From positions 1 through 6,965 of the forward strand of contig JAGBWH010000017.1 of the NCBI GenBank assembly GCA_017629925.1: 6,965 nt of DNA, in the 5' to 3' direction. The notes under the pieces were generated by a model that saw only the letters and a list, made by a program, of their open reading frames with translations, was not told where the DNA came from and made no database searches. Both the position numbers and the translations under genes were made by a program. Origin of the DNA: Clostridia bacterium. Its GTDB lineage: Bacteria; Bacillota; Clostridia; Oscillospirales; CAG-272. This document shows, piece after piece, positions 2,085 through 6,965 of this stretch; position 1 is the first letter of the stretch; every line of letters starts with the position of its first letter.

Positions 2085-4010
2085 TTACGCCATCAAGGCT
2101 TCGTAGAGATGCAGCAGTTCTTCTTCTAAGTCCTCCATTTTGGCGTAGAGTTCGGCGGTTTTTTGGTAGTCTGAGGCAATATCGGGTTGCTCCATCAACG
2201 CTGAAATCGTGGATAATTCTTGCTCTATTTCAGCCACACGCCTTTGCATTTCGGCTTGCCGTTTTTCCTCGCTTCTGGCGGCTGCGCGCGCCTTTTTTTG
2301 CTGCTCATAAGATAGTTTTGCATCGGTAGGGACTTTGTCTTTTTGGTCCTCCTCGAATGTGGTCTTATCACGAAATTCACGATATACCGTGTAAGCCCCC
2401 TCGTTCTCTTCAAGAGGATAGTCCCATACGCCACCGGGCCTTTCGGGGCAAAGCTCGATGAGACGGCTGGCAGTTCTGTCGATAAAGTAGCGGTCGTGCG
2501 AGACGGCAATCACCGTTCCCTCATAATCGGAGAGGGCTACTTCAAGCGCTTCTCTTGAGGCAATATCTAAATGGTTGGTCGGCTCGTCCAGCACCAACAC
2601 ATTCACTTTATCGAGCATCAGTTTGCAGAGTAGCACACGGGCTTTTTCCCCACCGCTTAAAGTGGAGATTTTTTGGTCGATATCCTCTGCGCCAAACAAA
2701 AACAGCGCCAAAGCAGAACGAATTTCCAGGTGGGTACGGTCAGGGAAAGTGCTATGCAGTTCTTCGAAAATACTGCGGTTTGCATCCAGCGCACTTATTT
2801 CTTGGTCGTAATAACCCACCTTCACCCGATAACCATACTCAATATAGCCTGACTTAGGTTGCAGTTTCCCACACAAAAGTTTGAGCAAAGTAGATTTACC
2901 CGTTCCGTTTTTGCCCAAAAACAGCACGCGTTCTCCACGGCGTATGGCAAAACTCACATGAGAGAGAATGGGTTTTTGCTGATAAGAAAAACACAGGTCA
3001 CGAACAGTCAACACGTTGGCGGCGCTTTCTTCGCTGGTATCAAATCGCATTTTCACGCTTTTCTCGCCTTTTGTCTTTTCAATGACCTCCATTCGATCCA
3101 GTTGCTTTTGCTTGGAACGAATGGTCACAAAGTTATGCTCCTGTCCGCATCTGCGTTGAAACTCAATATTGACTTCAATGCGGGCGCGGATTTTCATTTG
3201 TTCACGGCGTCGTTTTTCCAGAGAGGCCTCATCGGCTTCTCTTTTTTCTTTGGCTGAGGTGTAGTTGCCGGGGTAGAGCACGGCGTGGGTGTGAGAGAGG
3301 TGCAGGGTTTTGGTGGTCACTCTATCCAGAAAATATCTGTCGTGAGAGACGACCATCACGGTTTTGGGATACGTGGCTAAATAGTCTTCCAGCCATTGGA
3401 GCGCATCCATATCAAGATGGTTGGTCGGCTCGTCCAGCAGTAGAATATCAGGCTCTCTGGCAAGCAATCGTGCCAAAGCTAAGCGTGTGTGCTGTCCACC
3501 GCTGATCTCTCGAATACTGCGCTTGTCTCCGTCCTCTCCAAAGCCAAGCCTTGCCAGCATACTGCGGCATTTCCCGCGAAACACCTTTCCGCCGTTTTGC
3601 TCGAATGCCATGCTTTTTTGATCATATTTGCTCGCCAAAGCGGCTGCCTCTGCTGTTCGCCCTTGGTCAGCCGCTGTGATCATAGCGAGTTCTATATCTT
3701 CTAGTTCTTTTTCTGCTTGTAGTAATTCGGTAAAGGCACTTTCCATGTATGCCATAAGGGAGAGGGAAGCGCTGGAGGAGAGGTCTGTCATTTGCTCAAG
3801 CATCCCCACCGTCACACCACGGCCAAAAGACACAATGCCATGGTCAGGCTCACCTGTGCCTGCGATGACTTTGAGTAGGGTGCTTTTCCCCACGCCATTG
3901 ACACCAATGATGCCCACGCGGTCCCGTTCTTCCACAGAAAATGAAATGCCTTGGAGCACCGTTTTTGCGCCAAAACTCACCGCTACATCCGAGACACCGA
4001 GCACGATCAT
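2085..4010 (-). CDS. ABC-F family ATP-binding protein (YdiF/Uup-like)
   Basis: The 641-residue protein has two ABC ATPase domains and no membrane segments, the hallmark of ABC-F proteins, which bind ribosomes and act in translation rather than transport. Domain 1 has Walker A GVNGVGKST (36-44), signature SGGQ (170-173) and Walker B LLDEPTNHLD (191-200, Glu194). A charged linker (about 250-325, rich in Lys/Arg/Glu) corresponds to the tRNA-contacting inter-domain region. Domain 2 has GKNGTGKST (366-374), LSGGE (451-455) and LDEPTNHLD (474-482, Glu476). The C-terminal tail from about 555 is charged and probably coiled coil, as in YdiF- and Uup-type members, whose length this matches. A strong AAAAGGAGGGG site precedes ATG 4010. 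Family membership is firm. Whether it gives antibiotic protection or has a housekeeping ribosome role cannot be told from sequence. No terminator is visible past its stop at 2085-2087. Confidence 0.95.
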   Translation of the reverse strand: MIVLGVSDVAVSFGAKTVLQGISFSVEERDRVGIIGVNGVGKSTLLKVIAGTGEPDHGIVSFGRGVTVGMLEQMTDLSSSASLSLMAYMESAFTELLQAEKELEDIELAMITAADQGRTAEAAALASKYDQKSMAFEQNGGKVFRGKCRSMLARLGFGEDGDKRSIREISGGQHTRLALARLLAREPDILLLDEPTNHLDMDALQWLEDYLATYPKTVMVVSHDRYFLDRVTTKTLHLSHTHAVLYPGNYTSAKEKREADEASLEKRRREQMKIRARIEVNIEFQRRCGQEHNFVTIRSKQKQLDRMEVIEKTKGEKSVKMRFDTSEESAANVLTVRDLCFSYQQKPILSHVSFAIRRGERVLFLGKNGTGKSTLLKLLCGKLQPKSGYIEYGYRVKVGYYDQEISALDANRSIFEELHSTFPDRTHLEIRSALALFLFGAEDIDQKISTLSGGEKARVLLCKLMLDKVNVLVLDEPTNHLDIASREALEVALSDYEGTVIAVSHDRYFIDRTASRLIELCPERPGGVWDYPLEENEGAYTVYREFRDKTTFEEDQKDKVPTDAKLSYEQQKKARAAARSEEKRQAEMQRRVAEIEQELSTISALMEQPDIASDYQKTAELYAKMEDLEEELLHLYEALMA

Positions 4011-4029
4011 ATCAGCCCCTCCTTTTCTT

Positions 4030-4083
4030 TTATCTGTCTATGTCTATGTAGAAATTACATATATGTACTATATACATGATCAT
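4030..4083 (-). other. Possible 17-codon upstream ORF in the ABC-F leader
   Basis: Within the predicted leader of the ABC-F transcript, ATG at 4083 opens 17 codons (MIMYIVHICNFYIDIDR) ending in TAA at 4030-4032, a few bases before the gene's ribosome binding site. Some antibiotic-responsive ABC-F genes are controlled by leader peptides, which makes it worth recording. However, no ribosome binding site precedes it and the region is AT-rich enough to give such an ORF by chance. Confidence 0.15.
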
Positions 4084-4117
4084 ATTTTTATATGAAATAT
4101 TTCTTTTTACTCTTTCT

Positions 4118-4146
4118 ATTATATCTTATTTTGCATAAAATAGCAA
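4118..4146 (-). promoter_or_regulatory. Predicted promoter of the ABC-F gene
   Basis: On the minus strand TTGCTA (4146-4141) is separated by exactly 17 nt from a perfect TATAAT (4123-4118). Transcription would start near 4111, giving a leader of about 100 nt before ATG 4010. That leader contains AT-rich inverted repeats, such as TCATAT-TTTT-ATATGA on the plus strand at about 4080-4095 and ATGTA-CTATA-TACAT at about 4063-4077. Confidence 0.65.
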
Positions 4147-4214
4147 TATTTCCGACAAATATTCACAATATACATGAATAAATGACTAAAATAACGAAAT
4201 ATACATTAAAAATC

Positions 4215-4251
4215 AAAAAATATTCAAAAAAGTTGAAAAAATATTCAAAAA
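4215..4251. promoter_or_regulatory. Phased A-tracts and 16-bp direct repeat upstream of the transporter promoter
   Basis: A-tracts occupy 4215-4220, 4226-4231, 4236-4241 and 4247-4251, with centres spaced about 11, 10 and 10.5 bp, one helical turn apart. The same 16-mer, AAAAAATATTCAAAAA, occurs at 4215-4230 and 4236-4251, a 21-bp period. The last tract ends 4 bp before the -35 box. Such phasing gives intrinsic DNA curvature and fits an UP-element-like activator of RNA polymerase binding. The arrangement is seen directly; the role is inferred. Confidence 0.7.
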
Positions 4252-4255
4252 CCTA

Positions 4256-4284
4256 TTGACAAATCCAAACACAATGTGTATAAT
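4256..4284 (+). promoter_or_regulatory. Consensus sigma-A promoter of the transporter operon
   Basis: Perfect TTGACA (4256-4261), a 17-nt spacer and perfect TATAAT (4279-4284), with transcription expected near 4291. The leader of about 47 nt carries a small GGC-GAAA-GCC hairpin (4308-4317) and AAAGG (4326-4330) as the ribosome binding site for ATG 4338. No riboswitch-sized structure fits in it. Confidence 0.9.
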
Positions 4285-4337
4285 AGGGAACGTAAACAAA
4301 ACAAATCGGCGAAAGCCCCAAAAAGAAAGGCAAAAAA

Positions 4338-5177
4338 ATGAAAAAACTAATCGCTTTACTCCTCACAATTGTACTGCTGACATTCTCTCTTGCAAGCTGC
4401 GGCAATGAAACCGACAAAGATGCAGTGAAAGTAGTAGATATTCCTCTTACCGAAGAAGAATACGCCTTCTGCGTAGCTCCCGGCAATACCGAACTGCTGG
4501 AAACTGTAAATGCATTTTTGAAACAATCCAAAGAAAACGGCGTATTTGATACCAGCGTCAACAACTACTTTGGCGACGGCACCCCCGTTGGCTACGAAAT
4601 GGGCACCGTAGGTGACCGTTCCAAACAATTGGTTGTTGCCACCAACACCCCCTTTGAACCCTTTGAATATACCGAGGGCAATAAATACTACGGTATTGAT
4701 ATTGAATTCATGGCTGCTCTTGCCGCTGATATGGGCAAAGAACTGGTCATTTTGGAAATGTCATTTGATGCCATCTTCTCCAGCGTGGAAGCAGGCTATG
4801 CTGATATCGGCGCGGCTGGTATCACCTATGACGAAAGCAGAACTTCCGTTACCTTTACCGATACATACTACAAAGCGTCTCAAATGCTGATCGTCAAAGC
4901 CGATGATACCACATTTGACAACTGCAAGACCGCAGAAGACGTATTTGCTATCTTGAGTGCTATGGGCGCAGATAAGAAGGTCGGCGCGCAAAACGGCACC
5001 ACAGGTCAACTCTTCATGGAAGGTAATGAAGATTTCGGATATGAAGGCTTCGCACTCACCGTTGTTGGTCACGTATCCGGCGCACAAGCTGTGCAAGATA
5101 TGATCAACGGCAATATCGACTTTGTGATTTTGGACGAAGGTCCCGCAAAATCCATTGTGAAAGCCATCAACGAATAA
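4338..5177 (+). CDS. Amino acid ABC transporter substrate-binding lipoprotein, apparently circularly permuted
   Basis: A 279-residue lipoprotein: a hydrophobic signal (about 4-17) and lipobox LASC with lipidation at Cys21 anchor it outside the membrane. Residues 96-279 form most of a family 3 (polar amino acid) binding domain. QLVVATNTPFEPFEY (97-111) is the first strand and ligand aromatic site, YYGIDIEF (117-124) follows, TYDESRTSVTFTDTYY (163-178) includes the likely carboxylate-binding Arg168, then TTGQ (221-224) and ILDEGPA (264-270) with the likely amine-binding Asp266. The chain stops there. The closing segment that normally comes next (LFGVGT..., N-E-L, final helix, KKYF in HisJ) is instead found at residues 30-79 as LTEEEYAFCVAPGNTELLET through VNNYFGDG. 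This is a circular permutation of the fold. It is the first gene of the operon with permease and ATPase. The exact amino acid substrate cannot be told. Confidence 0.93.
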   Translation: MKKLIALLLTIVLLTFSLASCGNETDKDAVKVVDIPLTEEEYAFCVAPGNTELLETVNAFLKQSKENGVFDTSVNNYFGDGTPVGYEMGTVGDRSKQLVVATNTPFEPFEYTEGNKYYGIDIEFMAALAADMGKELVILEMSFDAIFSSVEAGYADIGAAGITYDESRTSVTFTDTYYKASQMLIVKADDTTFDNCKTAEDVFAILSAMGADKKVGAQNGTTGQLFMEGNEDFGYEGFALTVVGHVSGAQAVQDMINGNIDFVILDEGPAKSIVKAINE

Positions 5178-5194
5178 TTGATGATAAAATCGAC

Positions 5195-5230
5195 AAACTG
5201 TCACATCCTTTTTTGGGGGTGTGGCAGTTT
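5195..5230 (+). other. Intercistronic stem-loop between binding protein and permease genes
   Basis: Positions 5195-5208 (AAACTGTCACATCC) pair with 5217-5230 (GGGTGTGGCAGTTT read within the second arm) as a stem of about 14 bp with two G-U pairs and an eight-base loop starting TTTTTT. No T-tract follows the second arm, so it is unlikely to be a full terminator. By analogy with other importer operons it may protect the binding-protein end of the message or lower expression of downstream genes. Confidence 0.65.
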
Positions 5231-5253
5231 CGCTGTGTAAAAAGGAGAAGAGT

Positions 5254-5952
5254 ATGTCAAAAAAATGGAGCAAGTTTCTGGACGCCTTCATAGATCACAA
5301 AATGTATGAAGTGGTCTTAGAAGGGTTGCGAAACACCATTGTCATTGCGGTCGCAGGGCTTTTGATTGGTATTTTAGTGGGTACCATCATTGCGAGCATC
5401 CGCATTATGCCCAAATATAAGAAAAGCGCTAAAATATTAGACAAAATTGCCTATGCCTACGTATCATTTTTCCGTGGCACGCCTATTGTGGTGCAGCTTT
5501 TGCTGGGGTATTACGTTCTATTTCCGCTCATGGGTATTCATCTTAGCCCATTGGTCACTTGTATTTTGATTTTTGGTCTGAATAGTAGCGCTTACACATC
5601 CGAAATCATGCGCGCAGGCATGGACTCGGTCGATAAAGGGCAGCTGGAAGCCGCAAGAGCACTCGGCATGGGCTACTGGCCTTCTATGCTGCGTGTAGTC
5701 ATTCCCCAAGCAATCAAGAATATTTTGCCCACCTTAGGCAATGAGTTTATTTCGCTCATCAAAGAAACGTCAGTTGTCAGCTTTGTCACCGCCATGGATA
5801 TCTATACTGCGTTCCAAAAAATCGGTGGACAAAACTATGAATATATCATCCCGTATCTCGTCATGGCAGCCATTTATATCATACTTGTACTTGGCATTGG
5901 CGCACTCATTAAACTCATGGAAAGGAGCCTGAAAAAAAGTGATAGAAATTAA
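5254..5952 (+). CDS. Polar amino acid ABC transporter permease (HisM/GlnP family)
   Basis: The 232-residue integral membrane subunit forms the translocation channel of the importer. Hydrophobic segments lie at about 28-50, 66-92, 97-115, 160-180 and 198-220, the usual five-helix core. [10 protein letters not shown] (72-81) is the conserved family motif near the second helix. The EAA coupling loop that contacts the ATPase is seen as [20 protein letters not shown] (131-150) followed by [16 protein letters not shown] 5254 is preferred because AAAGGAG (5241-5247) lies 6 nt before it; an in-frame GTG at 5221 falls inside the preceding hairpin and lacks such a site. The stop TAA overlaps the next gene by 14 nt, indicating translational coupling. 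A single permease gene implies a homodimer, as in other systems of this class. Confidence 0.95.
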
Positions 5953-6769
5953 AGATTTACAAAAGCACTTTGGGGACAATCACGTGCTTCGTGGCATTAC
6001 CACGACCATCAGCGAAGGCGAGGTAGTGGCCGTCATTGGACCTTCAGGCGGCGGCAAATCCACCTTTCTGCGATGCCTAAATTGTCTGGAAGATCCCGAC
6101 GGTGGCAGTATTCTCTTTCAAGGTGAAGACTTGGCAGATATGAAAGTCGATATCAACCATCACCGCGAAAACATCGGTATGGTGTTCCAACAATTCAATC
6201 TGTTTGCTCACAAAAATGTACTGAAAAACATCACCATGGCACCTTTGTATCATGGGAAAAAGAAACTAAAAAAAGCCGTTTTTAGTGCGATCATCAACAA
6301 CATTTGCGCTCTATTTTCTTCAAAAAAAGAGAAAACCCCCGTCCCTTCTTACAGAAAAGAGATGAAGGCGCTCAAAGAGGAAATCAAGCAAAGAGGCTTG
6401 GATTTGCTCCAAAAAGTAGGACTTTCCGATAAAGCAGACGCCTATCCCTCCACGCTCTCAGGCGGGCAAAAGCAAAGAATTGCTATCGCACGTGCGCTTG
6501 CGATGCAACCCAAAATCATGCTCTTTGACGAGCCCACCTCTGCCCTTGATCCTGAACTTGTGGGCGAGGTGCTTGATGTCATCAAAAGTTTGGCGCAAAG
6601 CGGTATGACCATGGTCATCGTCACCCATGAAATGGGCTTTGCCAGAGAAGTGGCTTCAAGAGTGCTGTTTATTGCCGATGGTATCATCACCGAAGAAGGC
6701 ACCCCCGAAGAGTTATTTGGCAACCCCAAACACCCCCGCACAAAGCAATTCTTAAAAGCCGTGCTGTAA
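5939..6769 (+). CDS. Polar amino acid ABC transporter ATP-binding protein with an extra internal segment
   Basis: The 276-residue ATPase powers the importer. Motifs: Walker [10 protein letters not shown] (34-42, Lys40), Q-loop MVFQQFNLF (81-89), signature LSGGQ (173-177), Walker B IMLFDEP (193-199, Glu198) and H-loop VTHEMGFA (228-235, His230). The start is GTG 5939, which gives [11 protein letters not shown], the expected first strand. Its AAAGGAG site (5921-5927) lies inside the permease gene, and the genes overlap by 14 nt. Relatives such as GlnQ and HisP are about 240-257 residues. The excess here is an insertion at about 107-143 between Q-loop and signature, containing a hydrophobic stretch [14 protein letters not shown], then a Lys-rich SSKKEKT and charged helix. 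All catalytic motifs are intact, so the protein should be active. Confidence 0.95.
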
Positions 6770-6780
6770 TCAAACAAACA

Positions 6781-6827
6781 AAAAAGCTATTCGTTCCACC
6801 AACTAAGGCGGAAGAATAGCTTTTTTT
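6781..6827 (+). terminator. Rho-independent terminator of the transporter operon, probably bidirectional
   Basis: AAAAAGCTATTC (6781-6792) pairs perfectly with GAATAGCTTTTT (6814-6825), and an inner TTCC/GGAA stem (6794-6797/6810-6813) continues past a single bulged G. Seven T follow at 6821-6827. It starts 11 nt past the ATPase stop. On the minus strand the A run also gives a T-tract, so it can serve the convergent partial gene on the right. Confidence 0.92.
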
Positions 6828-6845
6828 GTTATGAGATGGAGAGGA

Positions 6846-6965
6846 TTATTTTAGCTGGAAACCACCAATCCAGTCCATATCTTCATCGGTGTTGACCTCA
6901 TCACCGCTTTCCCATAGCAGGTCGCTTTCCAGCAAAAGGGTGATTTGAAGTTCAGGAGAAGTATA
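6846..6965 (-). CDS. C-terminal end of an unrecognised protein (partial)
   Basis: The minus strand is open from the window edge for 39 codons to TAA at 6846-6848. The visible end is acidic: it starts YTSPELQITLLLESDLLWES and finishes with a Glu/Asp-rich run and DWIGGFQLK. I do not recognise a family. It faces the transporter operon across a bidirectional terminator 19 nt from its stop, which supports a real gene end. The start and most of the gene lie outside the window. Confidence 0.5.
   Translation of the reverse strand, partial: YTSPELQITLLLESDLLWESGDEVNTDEDMDWIGGFQLK

Follow-up and report, generated by a model that had tools for sequence, protein, structure and literature searches.

How does a solute-binding protein (SBP) come to carry at its N-terminus the segment that closes the first lobe in family 3 binding proteins, and is this order a peculiarity of one gene or a trait of a lineage? 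The question is raised by a 6,965-nucleotide stretch of DNA from a Clostridia bacterium (contig JAGBWH010000017.1, analysed as a whole and hereafter called the window), where an open reading frame at 4338-5177 of the forward strand encodes 279 residues, with start, stop and translation in agreement with a preliminary description made from the letters alone. The gene, its parts and its operon partners are the following.

4256..4284, + strand: promoter-like TTGACA-17-TATAAT, 12 of 12 consensus bases (a consensus match only).
4338..4400, + strand: predicted lipoprotein signal peptide up to and including lipobox cysteine 21 (LASC), from sequence.
4425..4574, + strand: block N, residues 30-79 (profile matches, GlnBP alignment, AF2 pLDDT).
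4575..4622, + strand: linker, residues 80-95, which bridges the former C- and N-termini (between the two profile matches).
4623..4898, + strand: block A, residues 96-187, first part of lobe 1 (profile matches, GlnBP alignment, conservation).
4899..5177, + strand: block B, residues 188-279, lobe 2 (profile matches, conservation).
5195..5230, + strand: hairpin with a 16 bp stem between the SBP and permease genes (z = -5.0).
5254..5952, + strand: polar amino acid ABC permease (BPD_transp_1; HEQRo_perm_3TM), one gene, with the ATG at 5254 taken as start.
5939..6769, + strand: GlnQ/TcyN-like ATPase with about 35 additional residues, named by likeness and scoring under the NCBIfam GlnQ and TcyN cut-offs.

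Block N comprises the last strand of lobe 2, the hinge and the closing helices of lobe 1, all of which are C-terminal in canonical family-3 SBPs, while block B ends past the last lobe-2 helix with DEGPAKSIVKAINE, followed by the stop codon. The whole protein passes the gathering cut-off of SBP_bac_3 (PF00497; 88.1 versus 26.4 bits), the sole Pfam family matched. When the two pieces were searched separately, as the preliminary description had proposed, residues 29-80 matched the end of the Pfam model (positions 98-131 of 132; E = 6e-4, 20 bits) and residues 95-279 its first part (positions 1-98; E = 3e-20). NCBIfam GlnH gives the same reversed layout, with the N piece at 195-244 of 248 and the main piece at 25-136, as do ArtI and ArtJ, and in the alignment with GlnBP (1ggg) residues 30-79 lie against 173-222 and residues 95-211 against 2-120. 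These matches bear out the claim that residues 30-79 are the closing segment moved to the N-terminus.

The protein end was also said to join smoothly to residue 30. Indeed, a re-ordered protein, composed of residues 95-279 followed by 29-80, yields a single continuous Pfam match (1-131 of 132) of 94.6 bits, versus 88.1 in the natural order, and an unbroken match to PDB chain 4zv1 of 94 bits over residues 4-237 of 237, versus 79.9 bits in two stretches. Re-ordering raises the score for most of the best PDB chains, the exception being 4f3p (62.2 versus 69.4 bits before). Canonical type II (cluster F) topology, in which lobe 1 is followed by lobe 2 and the closing segment, is thus found in this protein solely after re-ordering; in its natural N-A-B order it is a member of the SBP_bac_3 sequence family and not of the canonical topology.

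An origin of this order, hereafter P1, in assembly or gene calling is barely credible: the window's contig does span 6,965 bases in a genome 66% complete in 244 contigs, but N-A-B is common to all 120 of the best homologues listed, query counted, named species of Thermoclostridium and Acetivibrio among them, and P1 occurs in at least 22 of 196 evenly sampled genomes of the class (17 of the window's clade, its own genome counted, and five others), two of them single-contig (G167, G191). The suspicion that the permutation is a lineage trait of Clostridia has therefore held up.

It is, furthermore, very improbable that residues 30-79 form a separate accessory domain that resembles the closing segment, with a lobe 1 left without closing helices. 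In favour of such a domain, block N alone falls below the Pfam gathering cut-off (20 versus 26.4 bits), and the listed structure alignments begin for the most part near residue 91 and in a few cases at 48-51, without placing the block as a whole. Against it, block N aligns with the proper 50 residues of GlnH, ArtI, ArtJ and GlnBP, re-ordering restores one full-length match, and the block N of young P1 genes described below is C-terminal in a syntenic gene that is otherwise 85% identical. The AF2 model (mean pLDDT 90, pTM 0.80) presents block N as strand-strand-helix-helix, in the same order as in the closing segment, and with ten-residue pLDDT means of 92-97 over residues 31-80. Foldseek and VIA, both of which keep chain order, place about residues 91-279 on family-3 SBPs, and the Foldseek TM-scores of 0.35-0.51 among the matches listed fit an unmatched block N, though they are no proof of it. 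The PDB chains matched are canonical and of family-3 type, with amino-acid SBPs on top among the matches listed. Judging from homology and the confidence values, block N would pack on lobe 1. We are confident that the gene encodes a predicted lipid-anchored, circularly permuted family-3 amino-acid-binding protein with its closing segment at the N-terminus; its anchor would then lie on lobe 2.

The ligand site appears to have survived the rotation. Block A has N103, F106, F143, G161, T163 and R168 at GlnBP ligand-site positions, whose roles we assume to be those in GlnBP, and block B holds Q218, T221, T222 and D266; F106, F143, G161, T163, R168 and D266 are invariant in all 26 aligned sequences, as is Cys21 (window counted). 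G161, T163, R168 and D266 match GlnBP G68, T70, R75 and D157, which we take to be the positions binding the alpha-amino and alpha-carboxylate groups (G68 and T70 matched by the printed alignment, R75 by ungapped motif spacing, and D157 with D266 by eye). Since these positions are kept, the lobes would still be expected to close on an amino acid.

In canonical family-3 SBPs the lipid anchor is tied by lobe 1. The N-terminal strand of the window SBP maps to GlnBP 173-176, that is, to lobe 2, which we take to be about residues 90-180 of GlnBP, so that lobe 2 would take over the anchor from lobe 1. The idea that the anchor has moved to the other side of the fold hence stands as far as the mapping of this strand is concerned, with the limits of lobe 2 being those assumed here.

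The lipoprotein signal is accompanied by genes for a polar amino acid permease (TIGR01726, 78.7 versus a cut-off of 42.2) and an ATPase, and the trio probably forms an amino acid importer. Permease and ATPase genes lie directly 3' of the SBP gene in 76 of 80 related loci from a genome collection, the contigs of the other four ending too soon. Because there is a single permease gene, the permease is suggested to be, presumably, a homodimer; the SBP would dock on it, and its symmetry could tolerate a change of the anchored lobe. Promoter-like sites in 4000-6965 number eight on both strands, versus 6.5 expected in shuffles, the one upstream of the SBP gene being the sole 12/12 match. As with the hairpin of the window, inverted repeats are visible by eye downstream of the SBP genes of L203-L207.

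The additional residues of the ATPase (about 104-140; 6245-6355 in the window) lie between the Q-loop region and the signature motif. Counting as an insert at least 28 residues between the marks (17 meaning none), and omitting ORFs shorter than 200 residues or flagged as extending past the locus end, with a few cut ones of L002-L081 perhaps counted, we found it in 77 of 85 ATPases beside P1 genes outside the young groups and in 3/3 beside P3 genes, versus 0/6 beside young P1, 0/11 beside P2 and 0/4 beside canonical SBPs (P2 and P3 being the other rotations, introduced below). The insert was accordingly rejected as a partner of the permutation; it tracks clade.

As to the rest of the window, a ribosomal-protection-like ABC-F ATPase gene (2085-4010, - strand; 432 bits versus a cut-off of 380) is divergent from the SBP operon. 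On the same strand, luxS (990-1457) adjoins a methylthioadenosine/adenosylhomocysteine nucleosidase gene (290-976) that is interrupted in frame by a TAG after 32 codons. At the contig start (1-210), short and imperfect repeat units, cttacgaacaataatc.. and cgtagggg.., can be made out by eye, and Rfam has no match within the window.

The rotation is not unique to the window genome, and three permuted orders, P1, P2 and P3, occur in Clostridia. P1 is cut between the last helix and the last strand of lobe 2. P2 proteins (B-N-A; for example L101, 259 residues) end just past the strand that leads from lobe 1 to lobe 2 (..TQVIIVKK) and start with the next helix (IDDLKGATIGVQ), while P3 proteins (L146, L147, L152, L153; also B-N-A) are cut after the helix that starts P2. 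By the domain limits we assume, all three cuts fall in lobe 2 or at its edge. The N-termini of P2 and P3 carry signal-peptide-like stretches, most of them with a lipobox-like cysteine by eye, and permease and ATPase genes follow the SBP in all seven P2 loci examined (L159-L165) and in three of four P3 loci (L150-L153), L152 having the permease and then the contig end. One P2 protein was modelled with a mean pLDDT of 85 and a pTM of 0.74. Block order was first classified with HMMs built from A1 only, and the later group HMMs were trained on rows that include some of those classified.

P2 is present in at least 8 of the 196 class genomes of the even sample. The window's genus was sampled in 35 further genomes, with P1 in 12 of them and P3 in four; G199 (L154), another of them, carries a more remote N-A-B protein. 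At the level of the phylum, 199 sampled genomes gave the window's own genome as sole match at E<=1e-25, a threshold that other rotations or more distant P1 proteins outside Clostridia could escape. Among the 60 matches listed for P1 and P2 profiles in solved structures, a best-matching stretch across the N-A junction was found in the tandem 6h30 only.

Several relatives have further architectures. In L143 (1498-3126, 542 residues) a P1 SBP is fused to its own permease, and in L112 (763-2346, 527 residues) a P2-type SBP is fused to a permease part recognized by eye. Arrays of two to four SBP units in the P2 register, with a permease at the end, are seen in L157 and L158 (by HMM) and in L111 (permease by eye). 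Distant SBPs of other operons, in which a closing-segment-like block seems to come first (L154 and L155 by HMM, L156 and L169 by eye), are perhaps further permuted groups.

The history of these orders was reconstructed in an unrooted tree of 92 SBPs with re-ordered blocks. P1 of the main clade is represented there by the window together with 12 same-genus rows and one in five of the remainder; rows sharing identical blocks were removed, as were L119, L017, L017b, L009, L154, L155 and L120, names that were long-branch, distant or doubled. Seven changes are needed among canonical, P1, P2 and P3. Four of them involve P1, counting the switch to P3, and branches with good support force every one of these four; three involve P2, two being forced. 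An earlier, smaller tree, which kept every fourth P1 of L002-L081 and whose bootstrap had not settled, needed eight. AU tests reject one P1 clade (with P3; p=4e-6) and one P2 clade (p=0.0026), tests that follow labels fixed beforehand, as well as a single clade of the two young P1 groups (p=3e-47), a pair named after the tree was seen. P3 is a single clade within the window's P1 clade, so that a permuted protein seems to have been permuted a second time; the permease matches and the ATPase insert of P3 loci, with the same permease and ATPase type, also fit this clade.

Parsimony on an unrooted tree gives changes without direction, which leaves room for a single ancient gain of P1 with several later returns to the canonical order. 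We regard this as quite unlikely: the matched PDB SBP chains are canonical, young P1 groups lie within canonical clades with starred support, a single P1 clade is rejected at the above p=4e-6, and the reversions would be circular permutations themselves. Repeated gain is preferred, and the tree argues that the order has changed repeatedly in Clostridia, in place at the operon and at three loops in or beside lobe 2.

The clearest case is a young switch within one genus. The P1 genes L108 and L115 are nested in the tree among canonical genes of the same genus, and five genomes of this genus share a neighbourhood of three upstream genes, SBP, permease and ATPase, where the syntenic SBP is A-B-N in three (L203, L204, L205) and N-A-B in two (L206, L207). 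After re-ordering, L108 and L194 (the genes of L206 and L203, respectively) are identical at 181 of 214 positions (85%). The signal peptide is preserved, L203 and L207 agreeing at 21 of its 23 residues by a count made by eye, and the linker between blocks N and A finishes with FTTVEEGKLIM in L207 and FTTIEEGKLIM in L206, like the canonical N-terminal spacer FTTVESGKLIM of L203; block N hence now sits within the old spacer. A second young P1 group, L098-L100, is sister to canonical L104, at 75-76% identity.

Permutation classically begins from a tandem, and the preliminary description had suggested tandem duplication followed by loss of both ends. Duplication and fusion, then two trims, would give the observed N-A junction; a transfer of the closing block would give the same one. 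A cut-and-paste move of the closing block into the N-terminal spacer, without duplication and trimming, is a possibility to be taken seriously, though we lean against it. For such a move speak the signal peptide kept in L206/L207, together with the linker end FTT[VI]EEGKLIM and its likeness to the L203 spacer, and no tandem A-B-N-A-B-N gene was seen among the loci classified; on the other hand, duplication plus two deletions leads to the same product, and tandem arrays of two to four units do exist in L157, L111 and L158. The route was probably tandem duplication and trimming, or else transfer of the closing block.

Apparent intermediates need caution. The best 120 homologues listed for a P2 query include 54 B-N-A-B-N and 10 A-B-N-A proteins (P0122-P0217), that is, the 1.5-unit forms predicted by duplication and trimming. 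Yet their heads and tails mix freely: tails at least 99% identical form 91 pairs, 64 of which have heads less than 80% identical, heads at least 99% identical form 89 pairs, 24 with tails under 80%, the head-tail identity correlation is 0.31, and the heads fall into 17 clusters that are combined with 14 clusters of tails. Most of these proteins come from single metagenome contigs, P0168 being on seven. In the 196 class genomes the sole listed match across nearly the whole 1.5-unit query is a three-unit array (G043), and of 11 genomes in the order of G105 three match the query, all in its P2 part only. We therefore rejected the 1.5-unit proteins as proof of intermediates, and set aside P0242 (N-A-B-N-A) for the same reason; assembly has probably joined co-resident genes, canonical and P2, into chimeras. 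The suggested tandem duplication with loss of both ends may have occurred: tandem arrays exist, although the half-lost intermediates have the look of chimeras.

Comparison with known systems places the finding. The GlnH, HisJ and ArtJ family-3 SBPs (PF00497) share with the window protein the blocks, the ligand-site positions and the kind of operon partners, and differ in order, being A-B-N where the window protein is N-A-B and its P2 and P3 relatives B-N-A. In the GlnPQ tandem SBD1-SBD2 (6h30), the closing segment of SBD1 runs into SBD2 and the permuted N-A junction aligns across, but SBD1 and SBD2 are both canonical, unlike the window SBP. According to the available text of PMC4990184, TpMglB-2 (Tp0684) of Treponema pallidum resembles the window SBP in being a lipoprotein for solute binding that is circularly permuted in nature, and it has relatives in Gram-positive gut bacteria; the authors of that paper propose a 'Type Ic/Cluster Bc' and mention membrane anchoring as one conceivable reason. 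The two differ in fold, TpMglB-2 being a type I sugar binder and the window SBP, which lacks the type I sugar-binding fold and falls outside type Ic, belonging to family 3, and also in what moved: the first N-lobe strands to the C-terminus with a fourth crossover in TpMglB-2 (PMC4990184, same text), the closing segment to the N-terminus here. Repeated permutation within a genus is not described for TpMglB-2 in that available text. The review PMC3320104, in its accessible part, gives two main models of permutation, with swaposin and DNA methyltransferases as examples of duplication; duplication is a possible mechanism for the window SBP as well, with the same products, and the young canonical/permuted pair of one genus is an unusual test case. 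PMC9815098, as far as its text is available, concerns engineered halves. Among the open-licence PMC papers listed, TpMglB-2 was the only natural permuted SBP found, and permuted family-3 SBPs were not found. Natural SBP permutation is hence known in kind, while its occurrence in family 3, the cut points and the within-genus switch appear to be new.

Chain order is tentatively proposed, at a little less than even confidence, to be an evolving trait of clostridial family-3 SBPs, in which recurrent in-place permutation at lobe-2 loops would always bring the ends, and with them the anchor or a fused permease, to lobe 2, possibly for better delivery to the permease. For annotation the finding carries a warning: a protein that matches half of SBP_bac_3 may be whole but rotated. 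Since natural circular permutations usually come to light in comparisons of distantly related proteins, their origin and cost are rarely testable. In the present case, canonical and permuted genes with up to 85% identity occur within a single genus at a shared locus, beside the same partners, and the family offers three cut points; with these pairs and cut points one can test directly by what mechanism the order changes, what it costs in folding and what follows from anchoring an SBP by the other lobe.
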